In this document: piece after piece, positions 39,738-58,607 of the stretch | Layout: every line of letters starts with the position of its first letter | Numbering within the stretch: the stretch's first letter is position 1 | Source: Hysterium pulicare CBS 123377 | Taxonomy: Eukaryota > Ascomycota > Dothideomycetes > Hysteriales > Hysteriaceae | Assembly (NCBI GenBank): GCA_000467715.1 | Contig: AJFK01000316.1 | Span: 1 to 64,000, forward strand | Length of the DNA stretch: 64,000 nt | Direction: 5' to 3' | Program-made: the position numbers and the translations under genes | The notes under the pieces: model-generated | Told to the model about the DNA's origin: nothing | Database searches by the model: none | The model's input: only the letters and a program-made list of their open reading frames with translations

Positions 39738-40502
39738 TGAAGCGATAGTAGAGAAACGCTCGGTTTTCAGGAGGGGAACTACGGGCGGGGGATTTATACT
39801 GATTGTGCTGAGGCGGAGTAGTCTTCGTTATCTCGCCTTGTCCCTGTACGTAGGGTAGGCAGATACCAATGACTTTGACAGCTGAAAGTTGGGGGCCAAA
39901 TCATGCATGGTTGCCTACTGCCTTGTTATATTGCATGATAGATGCAGAATGCGATAATACGATGACCAACCGTCTAGAGGGAGGCAGCCAATCAACAAGC
40001 GCCCAGATTCGCCAATGCACCATAGAGTTGCGAGCTGAGATCCCCACCCTCACCGGAATACCCACGTTGAAGTTTCGGTCGATTCTCGTGAAACGACCCG
40101 ATTATGTGAGACTAAACGAATGAACAGGTTTGATGAGCGATGGAGTAACAAGTTCTGACCGGAGACGTACGTTCTGGGTTCGGTTGTGAACGTCGTTAGG
40201 CAGCATGCTGGGCCATACAGGCATAGCATTGGCATCAGAAAAGCAGTGTAGCAAGTTTACCTACATGCTAGACAGTGGCTGATTCATTGGAATAGACGTT
40301 GGCTAACAGAGGGATGGAGACTGCGTGGTGATTGAGAGGTGAGACGTCTGGAAGGTGGCCAAAGCTCTCGCGTGCTTCCGAAACTGGGTACCTAGGTTAA
40401 TATATCTTTGTCTTGATCGCACGACAACGCATTCTCATGGTTCGAATATACGGAAATAAAGTATCCATATCTTACTTGCTAATTCTCCCAGTCGATCTCT
40501 TT
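39738..40502. other. Intergenic: rvt promoter and 3' flank of the OYE gene
   Basis: About 765 bp. Both neighbours are on the minus strand, so this is the promoter of the rvt gene and the terminator side of the OYE gene, where housekeeping DNA gives way to the accessory cluster. Small frames here are not supported. Confidence 0.4.
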
Positions 40503-41997
40503 CTACGAAGCACTCACAGCGAGTTCCACCTGTTCCGCAGGCTTCATCTCGCCATTCAGTTTCTTCTCCGCAGCTCCCGTCCCAACATCCAACTCCACTC
40601 CCTCAACAATCTCCAATCCCTCATCCTTACTCTTCTTATGCAGTTCATCCCAAGTCAAATAATCTGTATATCCCACTTCCCTCTCATCCGTCGGCCCATA
40701 AAACGTATCGCGATTATATTTATTCAATGCCCTTCCCAGCTTCAGCCGCTCAGGCAAATCAGGCGTAGAAATGAAATACCGGCCGTAGACGAGCGCGTCG
40801 TATTTTCCTGATTCTACGACACCCCAGGAGTTCTTGTCGTTCCATCCACCGGCGGAGAAGAATGGAGTGTCGCCCATGATCTTGCGTAGGAAGTCGAGGT
40901 TGATGGCTTGGGGTGAGAGACCCCAAGAGCTGATGACTGAGTCTTTTTCGTCAACGTCTATGAGTTGTTCGAAACGCTGGTAAGGAGTACGTATCAGTAG
41001 TATTCCTATTATTCGACTATTTGGGCGCAAGAGCCAAGTGGAGAATGCTTACCGGTTCTATAAGAGAGATGTACGACATGTTCGGGACTTTTTCCTTTAT
41101 TTGCTCACATAAATAGCTCCAAGTCTCTATTCTTTGCTCTCCTCTCGCCATATTGAACAGCCCAAATGGGCTTAATCGAAGCGCACAATTTTCGCCACCG
41201 ATCGCTTCCGCTAGGCCCTCCATAAGCTCTATAACGAATCGACATCGCTTTTGCGGGGTCCCGCCATATTCATCCGTACGCTTATTCACATTTGACGACA
41301 GAAATTGCTCGGGCAAATACCCATTTGCTCCATGGACCTCGATGCCGTCGAAGCCTGCTTCCATCGCCATCTTTGCCGCTGCGCAGAAGTCTGATATCGT
41401 ACGTTTTATGTGGTCTTTGCTAAGCTCGATGGGCGGATAGTCTACGTATTTGACGGGTTCCGTGTGGCCTGGTGGTATTCTTCTGAAGGGCTCGTCCGGA
41501 TCATCCCATGGCGTAGCGGAAGGGGCAACAGTAGGGAAGCCAGTCATTAATGAAATTGTGGACCTGCCAGCATGCCATAACTGCGCGTAGATGTAGCCAC
41601 CTTTCGCATGGACGGCTTCGGTCACTTTTCGCCAGCCGGCTAGTTGTGAGGAGTGGAACAGGCCAGGAACAGCAGGGGAGCCACATCCCTATAAACAGTA
41701 TTAGCCCATTCTTCTCTGTTGAGGAAAAAGTAAAATGGTATTTACCTCAAGGCTGGGCGGAATTCCTTCCGTTATTAGCAGTCCACCATCACTTGCCCGC
41801 TGAGCGTAGTGTTCCGCAACCAACTCGTCTGGATAACAGATTTGATTTGGCTTCTTGTCGAAGCTGGTCTTGGTGAGTGAGAGGCCTCGGTTTCTAGTTA
41901 AGGGCGCGAGAATGACGCGGTGCTTGAGTTCTATTTTGCCATTACCAATCGTTAGTGGTTGGAAGAGTTTCGACGCAGCGCCTTTAGGTGCTGCCAT
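40503..41997 (-). CDS. Old Yellow Enzyme family NADH:flavin oxidoreductase
   Basis: Exons 41997-41746, 41688-41053 and 40976-40503 join into 453 residues. The FMN TIM barrel shows APLTRNRG near the start, QLWHAGR, then EVHGANGYLPEQFL with the His/Asn pair that binds the substrate carbonyl, NKRTDEYGG with the expected Tyr region, and VYGRYFISTPDLPERL near the end. Such enzymes reduce activated C=C bonds of enones, maleimides or nitro compounds with NAD(P)H in the cytosol. A tail of about 50 residues after the barrel is longer than usual. It is the first gene of the accessory cluster and lies next to a Zn2Cys6 regulator. An OYE-like gene (hxnT) also belongs to the Aspergillus nicotinate cluster, a useful parallel though not evidence of the same substrate. 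Confidence 0.9.
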
Positions 41998-42585
41998 GCC
42001 TAGCAGTATTCTCAAAGCCCAAAAGTTTTAGAGCAGGTTTGTATGAAGCGGTGGAAGAAAATCGATGAGTTTTGGAGCAGAAATTCGCATTCCACTTAAG
42101 TTCCGGAGGACTTTCTACAATTAATAGTGTGATCGGAGGTCCGCACGAATGGCAGTAAAGTCGGCTAAAATGCGACGAAGGGTCGAATTACATTTGTGGA
42201 TCAACTGAATAGATTCCTCTATGTCGCAAAAGTAAATGAAGTGCTCCATGACGCTGTTTGTCAGCACCTCCCGTCGACACCCTCTCCGAAATCGCCTTCG
42301 GGACGCCAGCAACTGCATTTTGGTGACGTCCGCGGCCTGGAGGCTACTTTTCTTATCAGGAGTCCGACTCTCCATGCCATGCCTATCAGCACTCACTAGC
42401 GCGTCTTCCTAGATTTAGTGTTGCGGGTCTTCACGTGGTGTTGATTAGGTATCGGCATTTATTAATTCTCCGTCAATCATCGGCAGCTTTCAGCCGACAC
42501 CGTAACCGTAAGGCAGACCAATCAGATACGAGTCACGTTTCGAGAGCAGCGCTTTGATGTGAGAACGACAGAGGACTCAAATCAT
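41998..42585. promoter_or_regulatory. OYE promoter and 3' flank of the regulator gene
   Basis: About 590 bp. A CGG-N4-CCG pair lies near 42134-42143, roughly 140 bp upstream of the OYE start. It does not share the N8 or N10 spacing of the other sites in the cluster. Confidence 0.3.
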
Positions 42586-45029
42586 TCATTCAATCTGGAA
42601 CTGGCCATTGCTGGCATCGAAAGTCTCCATGTCGAACCCAGATACATCAAGTCCACTACTGTCCATTCCACCCTGAAGCATCCAATTACTCCCGAAACTA
42701 TCTGGAGTCAACCCGCTTCTTGCGCCATCGTAGAAATTTATTGATGTCGTATCCGGGGGCATGACGAACTGAAATGGCTCATGAGGGAGCACAAATCCAG
42801 CATTGGCTATAGCAGGAGGAGTGTCATCAAAATCTGAGCTTGGCAATAACGCTTCGCCAGCCATGTCTGCTACCATCGCTGAGAATTCCTGCTGGCCCTC
42901 TTCGCCCTTGTCCATGGCTTGAAGCGTCGTCTTAAGACTCGGGCGGAGTTTCTTGATTGCACGTCGTGGTTGATATTTGCTCTCTTCGATCGCGTCCAAG
43001 ACCGTCTGCTTGACATTTTCGTAGACATCTCGGTACTTTTTCGCGCCCGGCCATCGTTCTGTAATTATGTATAATACTATACTGCAAGCGTTCATGTCGT
43101 TGCTGGCACTGATGCTGAATACTTCGCGGGGCGATATCCAGGTGCAGTATATGAGAGTCAACCCAGCCAGAAACACGGAATGCAGCGCCATCAGAGAAAA
43201 CCCGACTGAAACGTTCTGGTGCAATCTCTTGTAAGTCTGGCAGACTCCGCCGCATGCTTCCACGCATTTGCGAAGGAACCGTTCATTCGTTTGCTGAGCG
43301 GACAGATGAGGATGAAGTAGGAATCGCATACATTTGTAAAAGTAGACCATCTGGGATTCGCAAACGTCATTATGGACGTTTCGGCAACACAACGGATATG
43401 GACGTACATAATAGTCGTACCCATCGATGGTCGTAGATTCCAAGTCAATGCTTGTAAGCGTCTCTTTACATCGAGGGTGTCGAGGCATCATGGCTCGCCA
43501 GTGCTCAAGCTGTTGCACAAAGCGTTCAACCTCGGCTTCAGATGCACCAGCGGGGTCATCGACACGGTATATGCTTTGTTGAATATTGGATTCAATAATC
43601 CGTAATCGACAGAGATGAATAAAGCAGCTCATCGACGATGGATGTGTCGACGGTTTATCGTCATTGTGCTTGGATGCCTCAAGAGCTTGTGCAAGAATGG
43701 CGGGGTCTTCAACGTCTTCATTAACATCGAGAGGTAACTGTTTATTCGTGAGTAGATGCCTTTGTGTAGTTGTTGACTTGACCAACCTCTGCATCAATGT
43801 CCCGATCGGATATTGCGAATGGTCGTCCGAGAATAATTGACACTTGTCGATCAAGGCAGTAGCACGTCCAGAATACTCTTTTCCTCATCTCGATTTCCTT
43901 GAGAGACCGGTTCCTCAACGGCGACTTCCGATGAAAGCCGAGATCGATGCAAAGTCGCATCGCCAGCCCTACATACGTCCACGCTCCGGGCCCTCTGGGA
44001 GCTCGAAGACTGTGTATGGAAAGCAGCAAGAGTACTTCAATTGACCTTAAGTCGTGCAATTGCAGTATTGTATCTAGATGGGTTAACGCAGCAGTGTGGT
44101 GCTCCTCAGGAAAGAAATTGCCCGTCTGACCAGTTGTTTCTAGGAACCGGCCTCCAATAGCGTATATAAGATGCAGAACGCTCTTTCGATATGGATCCGA
44201 GATACTTTCGCGTTCTGCATGCAGGTTTCGAATGAAAGAAGTACGGAGAATTGGCCACCGGAGAGATATATGTTTTAGGTATCCCAATAGCAGTCGATCG
44301 CAACTCTCTGCGGACATGAGATGTACTTCATGGCTACCAGGTGGGCTGGTCGGTTGATATAGTGACTTCGGACTCATATGCCCTTCGATTCCCACACCAT
44401 TTGCCGATAAGGTGTTCTCCTTTGCTTTAACTAAAGATCCAATCATCCTTCCCATTGTAATATTTGAAGATGCTCCAATATAGCCGCCGCTCGCTTCGAT
44501 AGAAAGGTCTCGTAGAATATTGGTGACCGAATTAACGCTACTGGTTTCAGCCAATTCAACGTCATTGGGGGCGAGAGCCATCGTTTCCACTTTGGGAGAT
44601 GTGCTTGATCCTTTTGAGTGCCGTTGCGTTGCCTCTGTCTCGTTCGCATAAGAGTCCTCCTCAATATGTTGCCAGCTCGACTTTCCAGCATCTCTGATCC
44701 CTTCCCTTGCAAGTGTGGACTCTAGCTCGGAGATGCGTTCTTCCAGAGCTCTGAAGTATTGTTCCCGGTTTGCGTTGCTTTTCGTGGGCATAACGTACAC
44801 GCAATCGGCGTTAAAGTTGAGGCAGTTGGAGCAAGACGGATGTTGACCGTCGCACTAAACATGATAAATCAGCATCGACTGTCAACTCAAAATTAGACAA
44901 AGTCTTTACCTTCTGCTTCCTATTCTTGCATCTTTGGCAGGCGACCGCAACGCGAGCTCTCTTTACAGGCCTTGGCCTATCAGATGCCGTGCTGCTGCTC
45001 GCGCTCTCTTGCTGTCTGATTGAGTTCAT
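42586..45029 (-). CDS. Zn2Cys6 transcription factor, likely cluster regulator
   Basis: Exons 45029-44910, 44854-43787 and 43737-42586 give 779 residues. The zinc cluster is split by the first intron: ACQRCKNRKQK on exon 1 joins CDGQHPSCSNC plus the last Cys on exon 2, completing CX2CX6CX5CX2CX6-8C. A coiled-coil start (RALEERISELESTLA) follows, and then the fungal-specific regulator domain with LHLIYAIGGRFLETTG, GPGAWTYVGLAMRLCIDLGF and KRVFWTCYCLDRQVSIILGRP. The C-terminus is acidic and Gly/Ser/Phe-rich, as in activation domains. It sits inside the OYE-to-cupin cluster and is the natural candidate to bind the CGG/CCG palindromes described at 47881, 51078, 53773 and 56994. The binding is an inference. 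Confidence 0.9.
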
Positions 45030-45615
45030 AAGGAAGTTCTTGAAAGTATCGTTGACCTGTCAGCATCGAAAAGGCAACGTATAATGTATAAGTTCGCATA
45101 GGACTAATGCTATCCAAGATATCCCAGAGCTCTCAACGGGGAAGGGAGCTAGAAGTATGGTGAACCATCCTGGTGGTGTCTGGATCGGGCCCTGCTGCGT
45201 CAGGGTCTTCGGGGGCCGGCATTTGCTGCTGGAAACAAGGTAAGGGTAAGTGAATTGACATGATTTGCCTGCTGGAGGATCCGAGTGGAGTGGTGTTGTA
45301 GTCTTTGCTGGAAGTGTGTTGGTGTTGCGGATAGCTATCGCGTCCGAGAAGCGGCCATGAGCGGAGATCAACGTCTTCCCAAAACGGAAAGGGTCTACTA
45401 TTAATTGACATAGCAAAGGATGGTAACGGCCGATAAGAATTTGATAGGCAAACCGAAACAATATTCTAGAACATGTCGTTTGCATTTAGACCTCGTTTTC
45501 AATTTGCTTTCTGAGCTGTTGTAGAGCAGTTTCATAAAAATCTTTACAAATACTACTAAAGGTTGACCGAGTACGGCAAGAAATATACAATCTTCTTGAT
45601 CAATATCCAATATAC
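45030..45615. promoter_or_regulatory. Promoter of the cluster regulator gene
   Basis: About 590 bp between two minus-strand genes: upstream of the regulator ATG at 45029 and downstream of the DUF1446 gene. I see no CGG palindrome with the N8 or N10 spacing found elsewhere in the cluster, so self-control is not evident. Confidence 0.35.
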
Positions 45616-47607
45616 CTAGATCCTTCCCCTTTCTAAGAACTTATTCGGTATATCGACCACTCTAGCCCTGACGAACTCAGCCAAGAACTTCCCCAGCACG
45701 TCATAAGTTGCATTTGCAGTGACTCCTCGATCCAAATGATCATGTACCAAGAAGTGTACAGCCCATATGTTTGGGAACTCCATTCGATCAATCTTCTGTC
45801 CAATGTACTCCTCGTTCATAAGCTCAATGAACTTCTCAGTGCTCAGAAGTGACCGTAGCCAGTCCCACTCATCAGCATGTCGAACAAATAGACCGACGTT
45901 GCAGTTCGATCCTACGCGTGAAATATCAATGTGAATCCTTATGGTATAGGGGTAGTATACCCTTACCTTTATCGCCAGCTCGACCAAGGACGACATAGCC
46001 CAGAGGAGCTGATGTAGTAGGCCCGAATGAATCCGTTGCAACCGGGGAAGTCGGGGGGTAGGAAGGTTGTTGAAATGGGTGCTCTATAGTGGTAGTCGGA
46101 GGTGGCACTGTCAAAGATACCATAGATACGTCGGAGAAATGCACAGTTTGCGTAGGTTGAGGGATGAGCGTTGGAAAATATTCTTGAAACTAAGACAATA
46201 AGTCACACCTTCAAAACGAGTACTGAAATGCCCCTGCACTTACTGGCTTCGGGCTCGCTAGCCTCTTATCAGGATGAGCAGTTGCGGCTGGCCAGGACTG
46301 CATAATGATTTCAAGAGGCGGTCTGGCAAAATTTTCCCAAGAGAGTGATTCTTGATCCTTTGCCTGTACGATGAGTCTCAAGTCGATCGTTGCGGCATTC
46401 TGATTCTTGGGATTTGAAGGGACTGAGCCGTAGGCTGTAAGGCTAAAGTTGGTGAACTTTGATAACCGTTCCTGTCCATAACGGTACCGCATTTGAATTT
46501 CGGCCATCTTCATCTTCTCTTCGATATCAAGTCCCACCAGAGTCCAATGGAGCTCAGCTGTGTATCCACCGAATGCAGTCAATCCGACTTTCGTTGTTCT
46601 TGGTGGAGGCTTCCCAGTGACCCCTGAAAGCTGTACTCGATCCTTGCCGAGTTGTTTGAATTGTATCTTGTCGATGACCGCCGTCACATCGCTATTAAGG
46701 TAATACATGCCTTGAATCTCATAGAGCAATTGTTCTTTGCACGTCTCGGTGGACACTATTCCACCCGTCCCCTCTGGTTTTGTAATGACAACGTCTCCGT
46801 CAAAAGCTATCTCAGCAATTGGATACCCGAGACTTCCTATATTCAACCAGTCCAGACTCTTAAATCTGAAGATATTGGGTCAGTCAGTCAAATTTTTGGT
46901 TCGTACAAGCTACCAACGTACCCAGTAAAATTGCCTCCTGTCACATAGGTTGAGCATTCAATCAAGTGGCCAGCAATAAGAGATTGAGCCAGTTGATCGT
47001 AATCAGTCGGAAACCAGCTATGCCACCAAGTCGCTGCAGCAACTATAGGTGATGCATCTGCCACTCGCCCACACACTACAATGTCCGCTCCAGCTGCAAA
47101 TGCTTTCGCTATGGCAGCACTTCCAAGATAGCATTGAGCGAAGATGGGCTCATATGGCCAATCTTTCAATGCCGTTCCAGTGCAGATGTGCTTCAGATCC
47201 TCAGAGCTATTCTTGGCTAGTGCTTTCACTTGGTCAAGCACAACATCTCCTTCCACCCATGCTACCGTCATATCCAGTCCTTTCTCTTTTATCATATTCA
47301 CAACGAGATCGAACAAGGCCTTGGTTGCGACTGTGCCAGCATTAGCTGCCAACTTCTGTTTTTTCCGTGCAAGGTGCTCCAGCGCTGGCTCCAGGGCTTC
47401 TAGGAAGGTTGGCTCGTATCCTATTCCCAGAAGGTTGACTACATTGTACGCTTTCGCAGGCATATTCAGCTCCGACATCCAGTCTCCAACAAATACGTCA
47501 ATAGGTTCATCAGACGCTGCGGCAACTGCAAGGGCTTCTCGGCGGTCAACAGGAGACCCGGATATATTCATCACGCGGACTGGCCGCGTAGTTTGGAGAG
47601 AGCCCAT
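45616..47607 (-). CDS. DUF1446/AtuA-like acyclic-terpene-utilisation family protein
   Basis: Exons 47607-46922, 46865-46244, 46189-45967 and 45911-45616 give 608 residues. The N-terminal 400 residues are DUF1446: VRVMNISGSPVDRREAL, VFVGDWMSELNM, GADIVVCGRVADASP and IGSLGYPIAEIAFDGDVVITKPEGTGG in part. The last two exons carry a separate alpha/beta domain (LGYVVLGRAGDKGSNCNVGLF), as in AtuA-like proteins. A Pro/Thr/Ser-rich linker of about 50 residues joins them. AtuA is linked to acyclic terpene and leucine-type catabolism in Pseudomonas, but its reaction is not settled. The gene is divergent to the MDR gene and shares a promoter with it that holds a GTCGG-N8-CCGAC palindrome. It is probably a step in the cluster's catabolic route. 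Confidence 0.85.
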
Positions 47608-48248
47608 TCTGTACTGATGTTTCGCTTCTCGAACTTTTGCACCAGAAAATGAGAAAGTAAGAAAGATGGAGTACACGGAGAGAGGAAAGGCAAATCGACA
47701 TTATCAATCAGTATTCATCACGAAAGTGTAAATCGCATCTAGTTAGCTTGAAATTCAACGGAAAAACTTAATGGCTCGATGATTGATCAGAATCCCTACA
47801 TATTTTGCGGAATATCACTTCAGAATCGCGACGCATATTCTTCCTACAAGTTCTGGTCTTGTGGATGGTGGAGTTGGGGCGTCGGAAGTGCTCCCGACCC
47901 GGAACGGATTTCTCTTCCGCAACCGATAACTCACGTGCAATCACCCGTCCGACTAAGGTAAGTTCCTCTGAGCACTAACTGGCGTAGGGTAATGGTGACT
48001 TACGGGTTCTTTAATCTTTCCGACTTATGACGGGATCGAGCTGATCTACGTGAGGCCCAAGCAATGTCATCTCTGTTACGAGATTGAGGAACTTTTAATG
48101 ATCGAAGTATCCACGAGGAATAGACCTTGTCGAGCTGCTTTAAAACAATTCTCCTACATGAGACTTTGAACTTGTGTCTTGTAAAATCTACACCCTCTAT
48201 CTTATCGCCGCAGAAGCCGTCGTATCCCTCGAGTCCGGCTCAGTCAGA
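47608..48248. promoter_or_regulatory. Divergent promoter of the DUF1446 and MDR genes
   Basis: About 640 bp between head-to-head genes. It contains the GTCGG-N8-CCGAC palindrome at 47881-47898, a CGG-N9-CCG pair a few bases further on, a GATAAC at about 47924 and a CTTATC (inverted GATAAG) near 48201, fitting zinc-cluster and GATA-factor control. Confidence 0.45.
47881..47898. promoter_or_regulatory. CGG-N8-CCG palindrome, possible Zn2Cys6 site
   Basis: GTCGG and CCGAC are perfect inverted arms with 8 bp between them. Inverted CGG triplets with a fixed spacer are the usual target of dimeric zinc-cluster regulators. The same N8 spacing is found at 56994-57011 in the same gene cluster. Confidence 0.45.
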
Positions 48249-49569
48249 ATGCAGGTCACCACAATGGAAACATCCCACAATCTTCGAGGTATTTTGAAGC
48301 ACTTCCGGACGCGGCGTACCATTATCAAGAAGACAAAGATAGTTTTTGAAAAGAGTCAGGAGAAATGCGATTCCGCAATTCAAATATCAGAGACAGCACT
48401 GGAGATAACCGCTGTGACGGAAAAGAACCCAAGCGAACCTCCTCTGACGCAGAAAGCGCTCGTGGTTGCGGGGAAAAGAAAATATGAGCTCAGGGAAACC
48501 CATCCACTCCCCGAGCTATTGCATGACGAAGAAGTCATGATCAAGGGTCATTGTGTGGGGTTAAATCCAATCGATTGGAAGGTATGGACCGTCCTTGCAT
48601 AGTGTCGCATGAGGAACGACTAACGTCGATAAAGTCGGTCGAATACAATTTCTGCCTTCCTGATTTTCCTTGGGTAAGTCAACTCAACCCATGGTCTTTG
48701 TTTACAATATTGATATATTTAAGATAACGGGGCGTGAGCTCTCAGGCACTGTGGTGAAGGTCGGTAAATCTGTGAAACACGTCAAGCCAGGAGACAGAGT
48801 ATGGACCAGCACATATTACCGTGACGTACGAGCTGGATGCTTCCAAGAATACGTCGTCGTGCCGGAGCACACGGTTGTGCACATCCCTGGCGCGCTCGAC
48901 TTTGAATCTGCATCGTGTCTAGGGGTGGCTGCTCTGACAGCTGGGATGACATTGTGGAAGTGGTTGGGAGTACCATGCCCTATGATTGATGAGAAAACCC
49001 TTAAGAATGACAAAGAGGACCCGGATTGGCTGCTGATATGGGGAGGTTCGACTGTAACTGGGCAATTCGCAACTCAGTTGGCGGTATTGAGTGGCTTGAG
49101 GGTTATTACGGTAAATTCTTCGAGAACGGAGTCCTTGTCGGAATCCTTGGGAGCAACTCATGTTGTAACAAGAGACGACAAGACCGAGCAAGAAGTCATC
49201 GACGAGATCCGGAATGTTACCCATGGCCGGGTTACTTTCGCAGTAGACCTGGTCGGGCCAACAACGGCAGCGTTAGCCTTACAAGCTGTTTCAACAGACC
49301 TACCAGTTGCATTCGCTCCATTAGCAATGATGTCTCCTAGCCAAACGGTGCCAGAGAACATCATGGCACACACTGTGGAGATGAAGCAGTTCGTCCTCGA
49401 CCGAAACTGCGCGACATACGCGACGAAGCTCAATGAGCTCATCGAAGGAGGAAAGTTGAGATTCCCAGACATACATGTCTTGCCTGGAGGACTTCATGAT
49501 GTTTTGCCTGGACTAGACCTACTCAAAAGAGGTGATATGCGTGGTAAAAAGCTTGTAGTCCGTTATTGA
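48249..49569 (+). CDS. MDR-type enoyl-reductase-like oxidoreductase
   Basis: Exons 48249-48581, 48635-48673 and 48724-49569 give 405 residues; the 39-bp middle exon is small but keeps frame and motif. GHCVGLNPIDWK is the mark of the ToxD/trans-enoyl-reductase group of medium-chain reductases. It is followed by GRELSGTVVKVG, PGDRVWTSTYY and the nucleotide-binding LLIWGGSTVTGQFA. No zinc-ligand Cys cluster is seen, so it should be a zinc-free NADPH-dependent C=C or carbonyl reductase. An N-terminal extension of about 70 residues, basic at first, precedes the core and is unusual; translation could also start at the second ATG (48264). It shares a promoter with the DUF1446 gene. Confidence 0.85.
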
Positions 49570-49881
49570 TGGGGTGGAGAAGTTCTCATTGACATAGCAT
49601 GGGAATGGCGTTTAGAGCATGCTGTTCAGTAGGAAGAACAAAAGTTCATCAGAAAATAGAGAAAGGAGGTGTTGCATACATATAATAATCTCTCTCACTG
49701 GAGGTTAGCCCATGTTGTTATTGTACAGTAAGATGATCGACTCAGAGCTGTGAAGGAGTTTGCATACGCACGTCACTTGGTGTGATCCGTGCCTTTGCGG
49801 CAAACTTGTTCTGTCATATCGCCATGTCTTCAGACGGACAATCAAGTACCAACTTCTCTGTTATATTCCGCTGGGCACTAT
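49570..49881. other. Convergent intergenic gap
   Basis: A 312-bp gap between the 3' ends of the MDR and flavin-reductase genes. It should hold both terminators; no gene is seen. Confidence 0.45.
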
Positions 49882-50819
49882 CTATAATCTATCTAAGATC
49901 TGAGCAACGTCTTTCTCTTCTTTGACCTTCCTAAACGTAGCAGGACGAGGTAGTTCAAACCCATCAAAGCACGTTCCATAAGTGATCCCACCCGCTCTCC
50001 ATACCGGCCTTAGCTTCTTCAGATCGGCAGTTGCTTTAGCTGGATCATTCTCGATAATATCCTCTCGAATATGAAACATCACAGCTTCCACGAGAACCAA
50101 CGTCGCTGTACGTTTACCTTCGGCATTGAGAATCTTCTGCTTCGAATGAAGTTTACATTCGATACTAAAGGCCGATTCCGCCACATAGGGGGCTCTCACC
50201 ACTTCCGAAGAACCAAAATGAAGCCCGCACAATGGCCATTCCGATTGGTGTGGTGGTGTGTTTATTGAGCTGAAGTTTGCGGCTTCGATGAACCAGTCGC
50301 TTATGATACTAATAGATAGCTCCTTGGTGTCTAGGATGTTACGAAGCGTATCGTTTGGCTCTTCTCCCACGAGTGACAGAGAATAAAGAGGAGGCTACGG
50401 AATTTTAGCACGAAAAGTAACAGATCTCTTCTTTGAACACTACTTACATCTGCAGATACATTTTGAAAATACGAGATTGGAGCCAGGTTTCTTACACCTT
50501 CTTTGCTTGTCGTGCTTACAAGAGCAATCGGTCGCGGTACTGTTGTCGAGATCATGAGTTTGTAGTTCTGTACACTCGTTCGACCTTCCTCGTGTGGATC
50601 TAAGCTTATGCAACGATGATTCTTCCATTCGTCTTTTAAGGCTCCCTCACCGGGCTTCCAGTTAGGATTCGGCGTCTTTGATGGTGTCCATTCATTTTTA
50701 TGATTGAAATCGGGCCTCAACGCTTGAACTTCCTCCCAGTTGCCGTGAGGATTGCGTTTGACGAGAGCTTCCTTATCTGGTGCCTCAATTGGAAGACCAG
50801 TTGCTGCTGCTGATGACAT
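49882..50819 (-). CDS. NtaB/DIM6-type flavin reductase-like protein
   Basis: Exons 50819-50448 and 50394-49882 join into 294 residues. The flavin-reductase-like split barrel covers about residues 85-250: MISTTVPRPIALVSTTSKEGVRNLAPISYFQNVSADPP is its typical opening, read in parts, and FSIECKL and GITYGTCFDGFELPRP lie towards the end. Such proteins bind FMN and reduce it with NAD(P)H for a partner monooxygenase; NtaB does this for NtaA. An NtaA-type monooxygenase gene lies only 4 kb away, so the two are probably partners. The first 80 residues are a Pro/Lys/Trp-rich extension common in fungal members. The gene is divergent to the NCS1 permease gene and shares its promoter. Confidence 0.85.
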
Positions 50820-51474
50820 TGATTTGGAGATAATATAGAGTTCAAGCGGTATTGTGATCCTTCTGGGGAGTGTTGGGCTGATAGAAGTTCAAAATACTAA
50901 ACAAGACAAGTCCAGCGCAAATTTGCTACCCTCCTGGTTGCACCTATAGCTCTAATCGCCCGCAGAGTCCGGATTCGGAAGAGAACTAAGCTCCCTATAT
51001 CCTCTCCTCTGCAGCGTTTCCTTTTCAGACATTATTCTCTGGATTTCCTACCTAGCAGATGGTGAGGCATGGGAAATCGGCACGACCTTTCCGATTCCGA
51101 CTTCGCCTAATTGGCACTTGGCGATAAGTAACCGCTTATCTCGACTCACTGCTCCCTAACTCAAAACATTCTCCTCTGTGCTCGTTCTGGATCCAAACCT
51201 ATCCGCTCCTATCAAGATGGCATTCACCTTGCGAAATTTCGGGATGCTTTCCGTCGAGAGTATCCTGTCAAGCACAGAGTCCTTGTGGCCTCTTTCTGCG
51301 CCCCTAATCACGTTGCTGGCCACATCAATTTTAGGGACATACCGTTATATGTGGACAAGCTAGGCCTTATACGATTTGCTGTCTAGTCTATCCCGGACTC
51401 TGGAGGTATATCTTTGTGTTGGTTCCTCGAGAAACCTCTTCCACGGTCTGAAAACAACCTCCACCTCAGCAATC
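50820..51474. promoter_or_regulatory. Divergent promoter of the flavin reductase and permease genes
   Basis: About 655 bp between head-to-head genes. Near its centre lie, within 65 bp, an AATCGG-N10-CCGATT inverted repeat and an inverted GATAAG pair. A short open frame at 51217-51360 is probably leader sequence. Confidence 0.55.
51076..51140. promoter_or_regulatory. Zinc-cluster palindrome plus paired GATA sites
   Basis: AATCGG (51075-51080) and CCGATT (51091-51096) are perfect inverted arms separated by 10 bp, a possible zinc-cluster regulator site. GATAAG at 51123-51128 and CTTATC at 51135-51140 form an inverted pair 6 bp apart; paired GATA sites are favoured by AreA/NIT2-type nitrogen regulators. 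The element lies about 260-350 bp from both start codons. Binding is inferred. Confidence 0.5.
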
Positions 51475-53531
51475 ATGGTTTCATTTCCAAAGCCGCGTCT
51501 TCCTCGTACGTTTAACTCCGTGGTGGTCAATCACGACAGTCACAATACCCGTTGGGCCAATCATGATATTTTGCCGGTCCTAATAGAAGAGAGGAAGTAT
51601 ACTTCCAAAGCCTTCTTCGGATACTGGTATGTATATGACAAAACATAAAACTATCAGGTTACTTACGGGATGCACACAGGATTGCTGCGGGAGTGAACTC
51701 TACAGCTTGGGCTTTGGGATCCAGCCATCTCGCAGCTGGCCTCGATGCAGGTGGAGCGATTGGCGGCGTCCTCGTCGGAGGCGTTATTGCGGGGATTGTT
51801 GCTTTCCTCTGCGGTGAACCCGGAGTAAGTAATCAACCGTCTGGTCGACTGTGCGAAGCAATCAAACTAATTATCTTATAGGTCAAGTACCATCTAGGAT
51901 TTCCTATGATGAGCCGAGCAACCTTTGGCATGTACGGTTCTTATTTCGTGCTCACGTTAAAGTTGTTTGTGAACTTTATCTTGTGAGTGCTCTGATCATG
52001 TTCTGTAGCACCAATATTGACAATCTCAGTTGTGGCATTCAATCGTACTGGGGTGGCCTTGCCGCCAAAGTCGTGATCGCATCCATCTTTCCAAGCTTCC
52101 AACACATGACGAATACCCTTCCAGAGTCAGCAGCTATCACAACCTCTCAACTTATTGGTTTCGTATGCTACATGATCATCTTTACGCCTTTGATGTTTGT
52201 ACACCCGTCCAAACTGCAGCCACTTCTCTACGCTGCCTTCTACGCTGTTACGGCGGCTATCGCTGGGCTCTTCATCTGGGCTCTTGCCGCGAATGGAGGT
52301 GCATCTGCACTGGCACCTTCGAAAACCATATCAAGCAGGTTCGTTAGATGATTCAATACAGCCGCCTGCAGCTTATAGACTGACCTTTTCAGTGAGCGAT
52401 CGTTCCGGATTTTGCTTGCTATAAGCTCTGTGGCCGGAGCTTGGACTGGTAGCAGCATTCGGTAGGTTTCTGAGATGCATGACTTGCTTGTCATCGCTGA
52501 CTGCAGATAGCCAATCTGACTGGACGCGATATGCCAAGACGAAACGTGCGCCTATTTTCAACCAATTCATCGGAGCACCCGTAACGCTCGTAGTAACTGC
52601 GACATTGGGCGTGTTCGCAACAAGCGCCATCAAAGAGATGTATGGCAAGGCAATTTGGAACCCGATCTCTGTTCTTGAATTTCTCCTGAGCGAGCACTAT
52701 ACTCCAGGCACTCGCGCTGGATGTTTCTTCGCAGGACTTGGATTCTTCGCCAGTCAAGTATCTGTATGTTCACGGATCTCTTTTAGATGCCAATAAAACA
52801 CTAATCAGGTTCTAGGTCAACCTTGTTCAGAACTCAATGTCATGCGGTATGGACTTGGCTTCCCTCTGGCCTAAGTATATCGACGTTGCTCGGGGTGGTG
52901 TCATCATGTGCATAATTGGCTATCTGGTCAATCCTTGGAGGTTCGTTAATGCTCCGGGCACATTCATCACTGTTTTGAACTCTTTCGGCATGTTCGTTGC
53001 TCCGTTAGCTGGAGTAAATGTTGTCGATTTGTAAGTGAATGGAAGAACCGTAATCTGTCTCCACCTAACAATTAATTTAGCTGGCTTATTCGCAAGCTCC
53101 ACTGGAGAATTCCCGATCTATACGTTGGCAATTCTTCCTCAATCTACTGGTACACTGGAGGCTTTAACTGGAGAGCGCTAGCTACATGGGCATTGGTTAT
53201 TTGGCCATCTTTCCGTAAGAACATCTCAATTACTAAAACAGTTGTTGCAATGCTGACGACAACGATCACAGCTGGTTTCGTTAGTGGAACTTCCGGACGA
53301 AAGGTTGCACTCGGCTGGACCAGAACTTTCCAAGTATCTTGGGTTGTTGGATTCTTAGGCGGAGGACTGCTATACTACATCATCTGCTTAATATCCCCAC
53401 CTCCTGGAAAACCATATGTCACCGAGTACCTTGAGGACTCTGAGATCATTCATGGAGTGGACTCTGAAAAGGACACTGCGGTATCATCAGCTGTCGCTGT
53501 TGATGAAGAGAGTGGCTTGGAAAAGCACTAG
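51475..53531 (+). CDS. NCS1 nucleobase/allantoin-type permease
   Basis: Nine exons, 51475-51626, 51680-51824, 51882-51982, 52030-52338, 52393-52461, 52511-52763, 52816-53030, 53081-53214 and 53272-53531, give 545 residues. The intron at 53215-53271 is 57 bp, has no stop, and its removal restores the WPSFPGFV motif of the family. About twelve membrane segments are present, with RWANHDILPV before the first, GYPMMSRATFG-like FPMMSRATFGMYGSYF, GIQSYWGG, RQSDWTRYAK and NPWRFVN. These are landmarks of the nucleobase-cation-symport-1 family, which takes up uracil, allantoin, uridine, hydantoins, pyridoxine or thiamine with H+ or Na+ at the plasma membrane. Which one cannot be told. It is likely the uptake step of the cluster. 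Confidence 0.9.
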
Positions 53532-53834
53532 AAGGATATGCCCCAACTTTCAGCTTTTCGTACTTTGGATACCGTCTCTCTCTTTTAATCGAGATCTGAG
53601 TTCCCAATTTGCACCAGAAACTGTCCATCACGTGATTTTCAAAAGTGAAAGGCCTATCGTGTCAAAACAAGCTCGCAGAGTTCACAAGCTTTTTTCACAT
53701 ATCGTGCATTTCTCTTTTTGGTCTTTCGTCTGAAATCGCAACAAACACAATCTTCGCCCACCATTTCGGAAACGGCTGCAAAGTTCCGAAGTGGCCCATC
53801 GCGGCCCACTTCAGTTCCGAATAAATGGTCAAAG
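53532..53834. promoter_or_regulatory. Promoter of the hydrolase gene
   Basis: About 300 bp between two plus-strand genes. It carries a CGG-N10-CCG pair at 53773-53788 and a second TTCCGAA half-site just after it, close to the hydrolase start codon. Confidence 0.4.
53773..53788. promoter_or_regulatory. CGG-N10-CCG pair upstream of the hydrolase gene
   Basis: An inverted CGG/CCG pair with the same N10 spacing as the site at 51078-51093 lies about 47 bp upstream of the hydrolase ATG. Flanking bases are not palindromic, so this is weaker than the other sites. Confidence 0.3.
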
Positions 53835-54914
53835 ATGGCGCCGGTGTGCAAGTTCTACTTATACCCTCGTAAGGGAGGCCATACACGAAGTCGCGTTCTC
53901 AACGCGACATTATCTGGCCTGAACAACAACAATCGTCTCCTTTTCAACCTGTCAACCCAGGCCAATCTTCCACTTCCTGGACTATCAGTTCGACCAGCTC
54001 CAATCGAAATGTCGAATCAGATCCGAAAAGCGTATGCCGATACAAACTACGGCCAACTGCACTACCGCTACATCACCCCGTCTCAAAATGTCAAAAAAGC
54101 ACAACCGCTAATCTTCCTCCACAAATCCGCGTCTTCATCCGCCAGCATGGAAAAACTGATGACGCACTACTCATCCCAAGGTTACAACTGCTACGCCCCC
54201 GACATGCCCGGTTTCGGCTCCTCCTTCGATCCCTCGGACTCGACAATCCGGCTCATTGAGTCCCAGGGCACGACCTTCTACTGCAACCTCTACATCGACT
54301 TTTTCAAATCGCTCGGGATCTGGAAGGAAGATATAGGCGTGCATATCCTAAGCCACCATTCAGGCGCCAGCCTAGCACCCCAACTCGCATGCCTCTCACC
54401 CGGCGTCGTACGATCGGTGTGTCTGGTAGGCGCTAGTATTATGAGCGAGAAAGAGCGCGCGGAGATGAAGGTGAAGTTTATGGTTCCGTTTAATAAACCT
54501 GTTGTTGATGGAAGCCATCTTTTGAAGACTTGGGAGTATCTGGGGAGAATGGGCGTCACGGCCAAGGGGGCTAGCAATACGTCTCCACCGCACGCTTGCA
54601 GTGACGAGGATCTGGCGTTGTGGCAGAGAGAGGCGGTTGATCATGTGAGGGCTTGGAAGGGGAGGATGCAGATTTATGGCGCGGTGTGGAGTCGGGATTC
54701 GGAGGGCATCTTTCTGAGTGTCAAGTGTCCTATTATGGTGCTTTGTGCGCCGGATGATGTGCTGTATTCGCATCTGGGGAATGCGAAGAGGTTGAGGCCG
54801 AATGATGAGAGCTTGGTCGTCGGGGAAGTTGGGGGTGCGAATTTCACGGTTGATAGGGATGTGGAAGGGTTGGTTGGGGTGTGGACTCCCTTTATCGACA
54901 AAGCAAGTGCGTGA
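53835..54914 (+). CDS. Alpha/beta hydrolase fold protein
   Basis: A single exon encodes 359 residues from the ATG at 53835; an ATG at 54009 would give 301 and starts right before the conserved part (MSNQIRKAYADTNYGQLHYR). The longer form has a basic Ser/Leu-rich leader that could be a mitochondrial presequence. The fold is clear: PLIFLHKSASSSASM holds the oxyanion-loop region, YAPDMPGFGSS follows, then VHILSHHSGASLA at the nucleophile elbow, and CPIMVLCAPDDVL carries the likely acid. At the elbow the residue in the nucleophile position of Sm-x-Nu-x-Sm is His (S-H-H-S-G), not Ser or Asp. It may work by a different mechanism, or be a lyase or binding protein. In the cluster it is the natural candidate for a hydrolysis step after ring oxidation. 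Confidence 0.8.
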   Translation: MAPVCKFYLYPRKGGHTRSRVLNATLSGLNNNNRLLFNLSTQANLPLPGLSVRPAPIEMSNQIRKAYADTNYGQLHYRYITPSQNVKKAQPLIFLHKSASSSASMEKLMTHYSSQGYNCYAPDMPGFGSSFDPSDSTIRLIESQGTTFYCNLYIDFFKSLGIWKEDIGVHILSHHSGASLAPQLACLSPGVVRSVCLVGASIMSEKERAEMKVKFMVPFNKPVVDGSHLLKTWEYLGRMGVTAKGASNTSPPHACSDEDLALWQREAVDHVRAWKGRMQIYGAVWSRDSEGIFLSVKCPIMVLCAPDDVLYSHLGNAKRLRPNDESLVVGEVGGANFTVDRDVEGLVGVWTPFIDKASA

Positions 54915-55064
54915 TTGACGCCGAGGAGGAAGTGCAATGAATGTGTCATTATTAAAACTTTGACTCGGTATTATCGCTGAGAGAGAAGTGGCAGCGAGTG
55001 AACGCTAAGGAAAAGTTGACTCGGAATGCAATAGGATAATTCCAGTGGCAACTAATGGCGCTAC

Positions 55065-56687
55065 CTACGCTTTCGTCGCCTCCACCGGCTTCGAAGGTAC
55101 CATATGACCATTCTGCCCTGTACCATTGATAATTGGCACCTCGCCGTTGCTTTTACTTTCTGCTTCAGCTGCCTTCTTCTCCGCCTTTTCCTTCTCCCAT
55201 GCAATCAGACTATCGCCCTCGAACCCGCTGCCGAATTTGAATCTATGACCATAATGATCCTCCCTTAACCCTTTCATTCCTTTTGTGCTGTAAAAGTTCT
55301 CCCTCAAAGTGCCGCCCGGGACTTCATAGTCATTCCACATCAGTCCTCTCTTTTGAAGCTCTGGCACAAGTAGATCTACGACATCTTCATGACTGCCCGG
55401 CGTCGTGATGTAAGCAATGTTAAATCCATCGACATCCGCGTCATTGATCCACTGCTCAAAGACATCGGCAATCATCTCGGGTGTTCCGACAGGCGCAGGA
55501 TGGAAACCGCCAAGTGCCATTACTTCGCCCAGTTTGCGAGGTGTCCAGGGTCCGATGTCACCGATTACTTTGTTGAAGTTATCAAGGAAGGAATGGACGG
55601 CCGTATCGCTAGGCGTGTCCTTAAGCTCGAAGACTTCATCGAGCGAGTAGCGAGATAAGTCAATGCCAGTGTAACCAGAAAATTGCGCTAGGCCACCGAC
55701 GGGGTCTGAGTTTTCGACTGCGCGCTTGTACTTTGCTTGAGCCTCTTCGAGGGTTCGGCCAATTATAGGTGAGATACCGACGAAAAATTTGAGGGAAGCA
55801 GGGTCACGACCAAGAGATGCGGCTTCTGCCCTAATAGCAGAAACACTGCCAGCAGTCTGGGCAGGTACAAGCCCACCAATGTAAATAGCTTCTGCATGCT
55901 TTGATGCAAACGATCGGCCTGCCTTCGACGTGCCTGCTTGAAACAGAGTAGGTGTCCGCTGAGGAGATGGATGCATTTGACCAATAGCAGAAGCCTTATG
56001 GTATTTGCCTTGATGCTCGATCTTTTTGATCCTGGACGGTTCAAAAGCCACCCTCCTCTCTTTATCCCATACAACAGCATCATCAGCCCACGAACTCTCC
56101 CAGAATTTGTAGACGAGATCCATGTACTCGTCCGCCATGGCATATCGCTCATCATGAGGTATGACGCTGTCATGGCCAAGCGCCTTCGCTGCACTCTCAC
56201 TGTGACTGGTTACGATATTCCAGGCAACGCGACCTTTGGTAAGGTGATCGAGTGTTGAGAATGTTCGAGCAAGAATATAAGGTGTGAGATAAGTCGTCGA
56301 GCCCGTGACACCAAAACCGAGGGTCTTGGTCACTGCAGCCATAGCCGGGATGATGACCATGGGGTCGTGGGTTGCAAATTGGGAGCCGCATCGAAGCATG
56401 GCATCTGAGTTACCGCCATACACCTCGTGTGTAGTGTAGCCATCTGCGAAGAATATGAAGCTGATTTTGCCTCGCTCGGCGAGTTTCGCAAGGTTGATCC
56501 AATAGTCTAGAGTATCCTTCGTTGTGCCTTTATCATTTGGATCACTGGGTGGTATTAGGTTCATATTTCTTTTCTAACGTAGGACGATTGATACTAACCG
56601 CCACTGTCCAGGGGACATATGACTTCCGGTGCAGCCATGCTCGAAAAAGTTGAGATAAATGCGTTTCTTAGGCGATGCTGACGGCAT
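55065..56687 (-). CDS. NtaA/SnaA/DszA-type FMN-dependent monooxygenase
   Basis: Exons 56687-56599 and 56544-55065 join into 522 residues; the first exon supplies the family's start (KKRIYLNFFEHGCTGSHMSP), and the splice restores GQWRDPNDKGTTKDTLDYW. The bacterial-luciferase-like barrel shows FFADGYTTHEVYGG, ARTFSTLDHLTKGRVAWNIV, then YHKASAIGQMHPSPQRTPTLFQAG and AEAIYIGG. Members use reduced FMN supplied by a separate flavin reductase to oxygenate nitrilotriacetate, EDTA, dibenzothiophene sulfone or pristinamycin; RutA of pyrimidine breakdown is a more distant luciferase-like relative. A Lys/Glu/Ala-rich tail of about 60 residues follows the barrel. The likely reductase partner is encoded at 49882-50819. 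Confidence 0.9.
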
Positions 56688-57851
56688 GTTGTAGCAGATT
56701 GGAATGAGTTGGACGCAATTGAGGAAGGGAGTAAATGAGGCTCAAGGACTTATTGAAGAATGTAGAAATTAGATCCAGTGAGAGGAGCCCCAGGCCTAGA
56801 GCCGGATATCCAATGTGTCTCGCCATGGCACGAGTAGGTGATGGTCCATTACCCATCGGGAAATCCTCCGCGCGGATATTGTTCTAGAAATACCGTCGGA
56901 GCCATAGCAATATAGACACTCGTTGATAAGCTAATCGATCGAATGTACGGCGCGATGGTGGGATGTTACTTTCTGGTGGAGAAGAAGCGAAGCATCGGAA
57001 GGTCTTCCGATCAAGTGCTCAACGCTAGTCCCAAAACGGTAGACTATAAAATAGATAAATTGTTTATGGTTTCCATTCGTTTTCCCAGTCTTTGCGCTAC
57101 TGGAGTTATATCCTTATGCCAACTGCAGCTTTGCATTGGGTAATGTGTAGTGTCCGCGTGCTGTATAGAAGTATTCAGAGAATTGCAACGTTGCTATTGG
57201 GACATTTGATTCGTTGATATTTATCCATGAAGTGATCGATCCGGAGGGCTAAAAGATGTGCATTTTACCCTTTTATGAACCGAACTAAGAGGATGATCAT
57301 CCAAAACATGAAGTACTGGGCTCCGCTTTAATGGTGAGTTGGTATGCAGAGTTTGATTTGGGCGAGGGGACTGTTGGAAAATGTTCTTCAGTACGGTATC
57401 TTTGAGATCGAGGAAGAGTAAGGAGACTGGCTTTCGAGCAGTGGCTATGCGAGAGAACTATTGAGACTTGGAGGGTTAGAAGTGGATACTTCTTCTTTGG
57501 GTGACTATTTTGTATCGTACAGCCAATCAGATTGCGAGGCTGGTGGCGGAAAGATTCCGCATATCAAAGTCCGCTTGCTTACATCCACATCCAAGTGTGC
57601 AGGATGGATTCCCAAAACCTCAATTATTAACAAATCTGCTTACTGCTTCTGCGTAAGTAAGGAAGCAAAGATATAAATACAGGTACTTAGCTAGACACGC
57701 ACCTTATCGTCCGCAGAGTGCATCACGGAGCGTGCAGGACAGTACAACAATACGAAGACATTACCGTATCCCATAATCTCCCACTTCGATATAAAAACTC
57801 CATTTCTTCTTTTCTATATTTTAATCATTCGAATCGCACTTTTCTTTCAGT
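56688..57851. promoter_or_regulatory. Divergent region between the monooxygenase and cupin genes
   Basis: About 1.16 kb between head-to-head genes. Within 325 bp of the monooxygenase start lie a GATAAG (56927-56932) and an ATCGGAAG-GT-CTTCCGAT palindrome (56994-57011). The part nearer the cupin gene has no site I can name; small frames there are not supported. Confidence 0.45.
56994..57011. promoter_or_regulatory. Near-perfect palindrome with CGG-N8-CCG
   Basis: The arms ATCGGAAG and CTTCCGAT are exact reverse complements separated by GT, so CGG and CCG stand 8 bp apart as at 47881-47898. The 8-bp arms make chance less likely than for the other sites. It lies about 310 bp upstream of the monooxygenase ATG. 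Confidence 0.5.
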
Positions 57852-58607
57852 ATGGGCCCAACAACCCGCTCAATATCTCGCCCAAACAGTGTAACCTACC
57901 ACATCCCCCTCACTCCATCCACAACAAAGACCACAATCCATTTGCCCAGTGGGAGCACCTGGACTTCCGGTCTACACTGGCACGAAACCCACACCGAATA
58001 CCTCCGCCTAGTCCAAGGTTCCGTATTTGTACGTTTAGACAATACCACTCGCATCCATCGCGTCAATCCAGGAGAAGAACCCGTCATCGTGCATGTCAAT
58101 AAATTTGTGCGGCATGAATGGGGACGAGCTGCTGTTTACTCACCACGTCAAAATGCTAGTGATCTGAATCAGTTTGGAGATCATGAGGAAGAGGAAGAAG
58201 TTATAGTAGAAGAATGGACCGATCCTAGCGATGGGGATAAGGCTCTGTTCTTCTGGAATCTGAACGGTGTTATTATGTATGCTTTCCCCGGGAATCCAAA
58301 GTCGAAAGAGGTACCGCCGAGCTTGTTAGACAAGGTATGGATGGAATTGTGGGTGACGGCGCAGCTATTCGTCATCTTTCGCGATTTGGATAATTGGCCT
58401 GTTTTGTTTGATTTAGGAGGTTGGTTGGCGAAGTGGTCGAGTTTAAGCTTGGTGGCCCGCGGTGTGGAGTGGATTGTTACGCATTCGATAATGCTTGTTG
58501 TCGGTATAGCTGGGAGACTCTGTGGTTTTAGAGCTGTGACACAGGAGAGAACACCTGCAAGGCTTTTCGAGCATTGGTTAGGCAGGAAGGAAAAGAAATG
58601 GAGATGA
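57852..58607 (+). CDS. Cupin-domain protein with C-terminal hydrophobic segment
   Basis: A single exon encodes 251 residues. Residues about 35-95 form a small cupin: the WHETHTEYLRLVQGSVFV stretch carries the HxH...E metal-ligand pattern, and VNKFVRHEWGR supplies a further His. A Glu-rich loop (residues 117-126) follows. The C-terminal half has long hydrophobic helices (VWMELWVTAQLFVIF, THSIMLVVGIAGRLCGF), so the protein may be membrane-associated. Similar cupins occur scattered in fungi, and many lie next to metabolic clusters, but no reaction is established. It is the last gene before housekeeping DNA resumes with ILV5, and whether it belongs to the cluster is uncertain. Confidence 0.65.
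   Translation: MGPTTRSISRPNSVTYHIPLTPSTTKTTIHLPSGSTWTSGLHWHETHTEYLRLVQGSVFVRLDNTTRIHRVNPGEEPVIVHVNKFVRHEWGRAAVYSPRQNASDLNQFGDHEEEEEVIVEEWTDPSDGDKALFFWNLNGVIMYAFPGNPKSKEVPPSLLDKVWMELWVTAQLFVIFRDLDNWPVLFDLGGWLAKWSSLSLVARGVEWIVTHSIMLVVGIAGRLCGFRAVTQERTPARLFEHWLGRKEKKWR

Follow-up and report, generated by a model that had tools for sequence, protein, structure and literature searches.

Uracil catabolism in fungi is known from the URC pathway, which is defined by the URC genes. In bacteria, the Rut pathway opens the uracil ring by means of a monooxygenase (RutA), a flavin reductase (RutF), a hydrolase (RutD) and a permease (RutG), the last of these belonging to the NCS2 type. Among the fungal systems found in the literature, the closest in purpose is the nicotinate cluster hxn of Aspergillus nidulans. 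It is dedicated to the catabolism of a nitrogen heterocycle and, as given in the accessible text of two papers, includes an OYE (HxnT) that saturates the ring (PMC9304392) as well as the enzymes HxnS, X, V, W, M and N and a Cys2/His2 regulator (PMC5746545). No LLM monooxygenase or NCS1 permease is named in the accessible text of PMC9304392, and the term 'flavin reductase' has no occurrence in it. The locus described here lies in contig AJFK01000316.1 of Hysterium pulicare CBS 123377 (assembly GCA_000467715.1, positions 1 to 64,000; this 64,000-nucleotide stretch is referred to as the window). The part from 40.5 to 58.6 kb yielded nine gene models, for an OYE-family ene-reductase, a Zn2Cys6 transcription factor, an AtuA/DUF1446-like protein, an MDR reductase, a flavin reductase, an NCS1 permease, an alpha/beta-hydrolase-fold protein, a flavin mononucleotide (FMN)-dependent monooxygenase and a cupin-like protein (Table 1). 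They are tentatively read as a substrate-inducible scavenging cluster that would open an imported heterocycle by flavin chemistry. The protein families, gene models, conserved residues and shared upstream sites are shown below, whereas the substrate and the order of reactions are inferred. Like hxn, the set contains an OYE. None of the nine genes gave a Pfam match to domains of the molybdenum nicotinate hydroxylase (HxnS) or of the Cys2/His2 regulator (HxnR), and no characterised cluster with this gene set was found in the titles and abstract openings of the open-licence PMC papers listed by literature searches.

A preliminary description of this DNA had placed nine genes between an open reading frame (ORF) of 972 codons and ILV5, and all nine are present. 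Its family assignments were confirmed for eight of them by Pfam matches above the cut-off (barely so for the hydrolase) but not for the ninth, the presumed cupin, which had no family match above the cut-off and, even at E 10, no Pfam cupin match. This cupin-like protein carries a string resembling cupin motif 1 (HWHETHTEYLRLVQG, read by eye only), and no plasmid-encoded relatives of it were found at E 0.01. The same description had held that the set uses families other than those of Rut, and this stands. The cluster as a copy of Rut was rejected by profile scores and by blastp with all seven Rut proteins of E. coli. The monooxygenase matches TIGR03860 with 468.3 bits (curated cut-off 279.7), while its score of 50.6 bits with the RutA model TIGR03612 is far under the cut-off of 498.3. 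None of the nine proteins has a blastp match to RutB, RutC or RutE better than E 0.25. The flavin reductase possesses PF01613 (80.5 bits; best solved relative NtaB, 3bpk), while blastp at E 10 did not match it to RutF of E. coli. The permease is of the NCS1 and not of the RutG type (best blastp match to RutG, E 2.6). Between the hydrolase and E. coli RutD, blastp aligned 15 residues only (E 0.002). Further differences from Rut are the extra MDR, OYE and AtuA genes and the fungal type of regulator. Likeness to Rut consists of the predicted two-component pairing of an FMN monooxygenase with a flavin reductase, an alpha/beta hydrolase lacking a Ser nucleophile, a permease of nucleobase type and a Thr/Asn/Val oxygen pocket. 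That the cluster is Rut is refuted; that it works like Rut is plausible and gains support over the original claim.

The monooxygenase also matches PF00296 (LLM), and its solved relatives are DmoA (379 bits), LadA (358), RcaE (304), HcbA1 (288) and DszA (252), with weaker similarity to YtnJ (236), NtaA (195), EmoA (140) and RutA (about 34). Residues T110, N139 and V141 align with T105, N134 and V136 of the oxygen pocket of RutA, T105 and N134 lying at its far end. According to the accessible part of the review PMC7662398, mutants of RutA at these three positions are inactive, with the exception of T105S, and flavin-N5-oxide cleavage chemistry is common to RutA, DszA and HcbA1. Because the pocket residues are retained and this chemistry occurs in RutA, DszA and HcbA1, the fungal enzyme likely cleaves a carbon-heteroatom bond, the pocket residues leaving the identity of the heteroatom unfixed. 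The flavin reductase gene is two genes away from that of the monooxygenase, and a functional pairing of their products is predicted. A TIGR03860 match above the cut-off and a separate reductase gene nearby are features in common with the systems of NtaA, DmoA, LadA, DszA, RcaE and HcbA1 and their NtaB-type reductases. The fungal case differs from them in being eukaryotic and in having neighbours unlike those of the bacterial regions inspected.

For the permease, PF02133 was above the cut-off on three exon ORFs, and TIGR00800 gave 288 bits, under its cut-off of 353; the next-ranking models, also below cut-off, were those of bacterial allantoin permeases. Mhp1 is among its solved relatives, at low overall similarity (61 bits). 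Residues Q137 and N349 align with Gln121 and Asn318 of Mhp1, and F133 with Trp117 (Gly219 and Trp220 of Mhp1 fell in an alignment gap and were left out of the comparison). In Mhp1, Asn318 and Gln121 form hydrogen bonds to the hydantoin ring and set its orientation, Trp117 stacks against the ring, and replacement of Trp117 by Phe lowers uptake only moderately, as stated in the accessible text of PMC4195764. On Gln121 that text is inconsistent, in one passage denying its conservation across the wider NCS1 family and in another calling it a conserved residue. The permease is like Mhp1 and the allantoin permeases in its NCS1 family and in a Gln/Asn pair of the kind that binds a cyclic amide, and unlike Mhp1 in its Phe for Trp117 and its low overall similarity. 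The Gln/Asn pair favours a cyclic amide as the predicted cargo. Scans of viral contigs with the permease gave zero matches, as did those with the hydrolase.

The hydrolase-fold protein is less readily placed, as PF12697 and PF00561 are only just above the cut-off and one solved protein was found at E 3e-4; structure prediction without an alignment gave a mean predicted local distance difference test score of 35. Its elbow reads S-H-H175-S-G, with a His in the nucleophile position in departure from the pattern G-x-Ser-x-G, and profile alignment to a solved esterase places this His on the esterase's elbow Ser. The expected C-terminal His is unseen in the fungal protein and in its best relative, both of which read GGANF. 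Bacterial relatives (22-32% identity) possess an elbow of G-x-H-T-G or G-H-H-F-G, and the His is kept in 11 of 12 distinct bacterial places (duplicates counted once), the exception being L022, in the second and weaker of its places. The relatives compared were plasmid records H21-H25 and H28 (six of the 12) and further genome loci, with H26, H27 and H29-H32 left out. Loci of this family are L021, L022, L032, L033, L034, L035, L036, L037, L038, L039 and L045. Such a family of the alpha/beta-hydrolase fold in bacteria and fungi, with His for Ser in an elbow that is mostly G-x-H-T-G, possibly represents a new enzyme class. RutD reportedly carries a His in the nucleophile's place, and the E. coli RutD elbow is likewise without Ser (G-H-A-L-G).

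Among genomes reached via the bacterial loci, hydrolase relatives were found in one of four at E 1e-3, and in one of 398 and two of 296 at E 1e-10; with the relative from Novosphingobium as query, three of 296 were positive at E 1e-20. On a Streptomyces plasmid, a hydrolase relative stands directly before an LLM-class oxidoreductase gene (L039:8004-9829) whose best model score is of the F420 type. On a Comamonas plasmid, one stands directly before an isochorismatase-family gene with weak similarity to RutB (L037:7980-9549; tblastn, E 2e-8). Both settings are Rut-like in kind and the relatives are distant. Acyl-CoA genes occur near hydrolase relatives in Variovorax and Comamonas, and one further region held nothing telling; two regions from Novosphingobium carried no annotation.

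As regards the remaining proteins, PF00724 was matched by each of the three exon ORFs of the OYE gene (in one case below the cut-off when taken alone); the protein has plant 12-oxophytodienoate reductases as its best solved relatives and contains the string HGANGY, read by eye. The MDR reductase carries PF08240 and PF00107, with the enoyl reductase LovC as best solved relative. PF07287 was found on two exon ORFs of the AtuA-like gene and PF23544 on its last; the best twelve relatives listed are 33-37% identical. The Zn2Cys6 protein combines PF00172 with PF04082.

Sites that may be shared were sought in six upstream regions (3,922 bases) with 69 pattern rows and 300 shuffles. CGG-N3-CGG was found six times (0.8 expected) and CGG-N8-CCG four times (0.4 expected). 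The composite CGG-N3-CGG-N10-CCG has exactly three matches in the 64 kb window, all upstream of cluster genes, where 0.17 were expected and none of 100 shuffles reached three. A triple of half-sites of any kind common to three regions arose in none of 1000 shuffles (common to two, in 46 of 1000), and in a control with non-overlapping real segments three of 3000 sets reached three regions; the best half-site pair alone is unremarkable, four regions being reached in 77 of 1000 shuffles. The composite site supports a predicted co-regulation of part of the set, and the cluster as a whole is probably co-regulated. A site search cannot tell which protein binds, and the Zn2Cys6 regulator is put forward as the candidate. 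The hexamer TCGGAA occurs 10 times (2.8 expected) in four of the six regions and, as one of 1670 hexamers, is not significant after correction. The palindrome TCGGAAG-N2-CTTCCGA, which is matched four times when up to three mismatches are allowed (3.4 by chance), is only suggestive as a second shared motif. We infer that the AtuA-like, MDR and cupin-like genes are members of the cluster; the motif evidence for placing them in one regulon with the core is weak.

In the proposed mechanism, the cargo of the NCS1 permease would be a small heterocycle, either a cyclic amide or ureide-like. FMNH2 from the flavin reductase would go to the NtaA/DmoA-type monooxygenase, which would activate oxygen at flavin N5 in a RutA-like pocket and cleave a carbon-heteroatom bond of the ring, most likely C-N and possibly C-S. 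The unstable product would then be hydrated or hydrolysed by the hydrolase-fold protein, as RutD is thought to do, and the leftover unsaturated carbon processed by the OYE and MDR enzymes, perhaps with the AtuA-like and cupin-like proteins. Induction of the set would come from the Zn2Cys6 protein acting at the CGG/CCG sites.

A number of results weigh against this reading, the strongest against a nitrogen-containing ring being the sulfur-gene neighbourhoods of the monooxygenase's bacterial relatives. A GTDB scan with the monooxygenase found 20 loci, of which three have 45-46% identity and the others 33-36%, and a plasmid scan gave 1259 records, every one below 60%. Nine annotated plasmid regions from 20 listed matches, with relatives 43-46% identical, were inspected, with flanks of 12 kb for two and 7 kb for seven. 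Sulfur-named neighbours are present in seven of the nine: SfnB in three, SsuD with methionine and sulfonate transport in two, SsuD with methionine transport in one and, in one, MetQ as the sole sulfur gene together with a flavin reductase. In the 20 GTDB loci, the other eight proteins have no convincing relative (best match, the NCS1 permease to L018, E 4.6e-4 over 62 residues). The T/N/V pocket is kept in all five comparison proteins (four bacterial relatives and RutA), and because the four bacterial relatives retain these positions, the pocket is specific neither to Rut nor to a ring amide. The GATA-factor site HGATAR is not enriched upstream (18 against 13.4 expected, p 0.14). The RutD model TIGR03611 is unmatched by the fungal hydrolase at E up to 10, and the fungal His is one residue later than that of RutD, so that equivalence of the two sites is not claimed; the replacement of Ser marks the predicted hydrolase as unusual and does not demonstrate RutD activity. 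As for the composite site, it was picked after the pair-motif matches had been inspected, it is present in three of the six upstream regions, and its copy at the OYE gene lies about 480 bases from the start codon, near the 3' end of the regulator gene. With overlaps allowed in the real-segment control, 33 of 3000 sets reach three regions. The preliminary proposal of import, flavin-dependent cleavage and hydrolysis remains compatible with the permease, pocket and elbow residues, but the pocket is also kept in the relatives from sulfur operons. Its requirement that the ring contain nitrogen is not supported: solved relatives include enzymes for dimethyl sulfide (DmoA) and alkanes (LadA), and the bacterial relatives are mostly beside sulfur-acquisition genes.

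Organosulfur scavenging is accordingly a serious rival, if on balance an unlikely one. Here, with sulfur limiting, the monooxygenase would act on a C-S bond in a sulfide, a sulfone or an S-heterocycle and cleave it, and the permease would bring in a sulfur ring. The best solved relative is a dimethyl-sulfide monooxygenase, and the neighbourhoods just described point the same way. CACGTG, the core of the Cbf1 site in sulfur genes of yeast, occurs three times in three of the six upstream regions (0.5 expected, p 0.007, as one of the 69 rows). Thiamine contains a sulfur ring. It is transported by some fungal NCS1 proteins, according to the accessible text of PMC10788122. Against this, two of the nine inspected regions have no sulfur-named neighbour at all, and if apparent repeats are counted once (three regions from Pantoea that resemble a single locus, and two from Rhizobium that resemble a second), sulfur genes remain in about four of six distinct arrangements. 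An identity of 45% leaves room for another substrate, and DmoA, LadA and RcaE are within 80 bits of one another. ATGRYRYCAT, presumably the CYS3/MetR-type site, has zero occurrences in the six upstream regions. The counts of HGATAR and ATGRYRYCAT do not decide between nitrogen and sulfur.

It is equally doubtful, on our estimate, that the nine genes form not one cluster but a chance neighbourhood of common fungal accessory families, perhaps falling into two or three separate small sets, such as AtuA plus MDR, a set of flavin reductase, NCS1 permease, hydrolase and monooxygenase, and the cupin-like gene by itself. Filamentous fungi have many members of these families. The motifs, moreover, split the set, with the composite site at the OYE, flavin reductase/NCS1 and hydrolase genes and the palindrome at the AtuA/MDR and monooxygenase/cupin-like pairs, and the control with overlaps allowed falls on the same side. 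The remaining composite-site statistics argue for a single cluster, as do the TCGGAA hexamer, within the limit of its correction, and the presence of a member of an FMNH2-requiring monooxygenase family near a reductase. It is improbable that the genes serve to break down a terpenoid or branched acyl compound for carbon, around a core of AtuA, OYE, MDR and a LadA-like monooxygenase. In favour of this reading, the alkane monooxygenase LadA is the second solved relative, and the best AtuA relative (Rhodococcus plasmid pRZP2, the one AtuA region inspected) belongs to an acyl-CoA operon near which there is also a gene of the flavin reductase family. Against it, Pfam gave no acyl-CoA ligase, dehydrogenase, hydratase or biotin carboxylase domain for any of the nine genes, and an NCS1 permease does not fit.

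Introns, Zn2Cys6 regulators and ILV5 in the window agree with a filamentous fungus as its source. Introns were placed by splice-site consensus score and reading frame, without transcripts. Six of the genes form three divergent pairs, each with a common intergenic region; the hydrolase ORF starts 303 bases past the NCS1 gene, and the OYE and regulator genes are located at the left side of the set. To the right, ILV5 (with KARI domains) is followed by genes for a ubiquitin-conjugating enzyme and a RibD_C reductase. The 972-codon ORF on the left had been named rvt, a label that is unverified because the ORF has zero Pfam matches even at E 10. Elsewhere in the window, a 1722-codon ORF has TPR, winged-helix (GPIID_WHD) and NPHP3-type matches, a domain set which we take to resemble that of fungal NLR-like proteins, and another Zn2Cys6 regulator with a Fungal_trans domain is distant from the cluster.

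Table 1. Gene models, upstream sites and other features of the window
Feature	Position	Strand	Details
OYE-family ene-reductase, 453 aa	40503..41997	-	3 exons: 41997-41746, 41688-41053, 40976-40503
Zn2Cys6 transcription factor, 779 aa, candidate cluster regulator	42586..45029	-	3 exons: 45029-44910, 44854-43787, 43737-42586
AtuA/DUF1446-like protein, 608 aa	45616..47607	-	4 exons: 47607-46922, 46865-46244, 46189-45967, 45911-45616
MDR (LovC-like) reductase, 405 aa	48249..49569	+	3 exons: 48249-48581, 48635-48673, 48724-49569; start codon uncertain
NtaB-type flavin reductase, 294 aa	49882..50819	-	2 exons: 50819-50448, 50394-49882
NCS1 permease, 564 aa	51475..53531	+	8 exons: 51475-51626, 51680-51824, 51882-51982, 52030-52338, 52393-52461, 52511-52763, 52816-53030, 53081-53531
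Alpha/beta-hydrolase-fold protein, 359 aa	53835..54914	+	1 exon; later ATG at 54009 possible
NtaA/DmoA-family FMN-dependent monooxygenase, 522 aa	55065..56687	-	2 exons: 56687-56599, 56544-55065
Cupin-like protein, 251 aa	57852..58607	+	1 exon
Composite CGG-N3-CGG-N10-CCG	42481..42502	-	between regulator stop and OYE start, about 480 bases before OYE ATG
Composite CGG-N3-CGG-N10-CCG	51078..51099	-	divergent flavin reductase/NCS1 intergenic region
Composite CGG-N3-CGG-N10-CCG	53767..53788	+	46 bases before hydrolase ATG
Palindrome TCGGAAG-N2-CTTCCGA, 1 mismatch	47882..47897	+	divergent AtuA/MDR region
Palindrome TCGGAAG-N2-CTTCCGA, perfect	56995..57010	+	divergent NtaA/cupin-like region
Intergenic region AtuA/MDR	47608..48248		divergent pair
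Intergenic region flavin reductase/NCS1	50820..51474		divergent pair
Intergenic region monooxygenase/cupin-like	56688..57851		divergent pair
Left-flank ORF, earlier named rvt	36909..39827		972 codons
ORF with TPR, GPIID_WHD and NPHP3-type matches	18175..23340		1722 codons
Zn2Cys6 regulator distant from cluster	4765..6672		Fungal_trans domain

A more specific version of the scavenging-cluster reading would make the locus an independently assembled eukaryotic counterpart of Rut, in which a cyclic amide is opened through a flavin-N5-peroxide by an enzyme of the DmoA branch and the reaction is completed by the putative His-for-Ser class (G-x-H-T/S-G); we consider this unlikely as it stands, though worth stating for what would follow from it. 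NtaA-type monooxygenases are, to our knowledge, common in fungi and mostly without an assigned function. If the proposal is true, fungi would possess the flavin-N5 route of heterocycle opening described from bacteria, with different proteins for the equivalent jobs, and a function would be provided both for fungal NtaA-type monooxygenases and for a hydrolase-fold family in which His replaces Ser.

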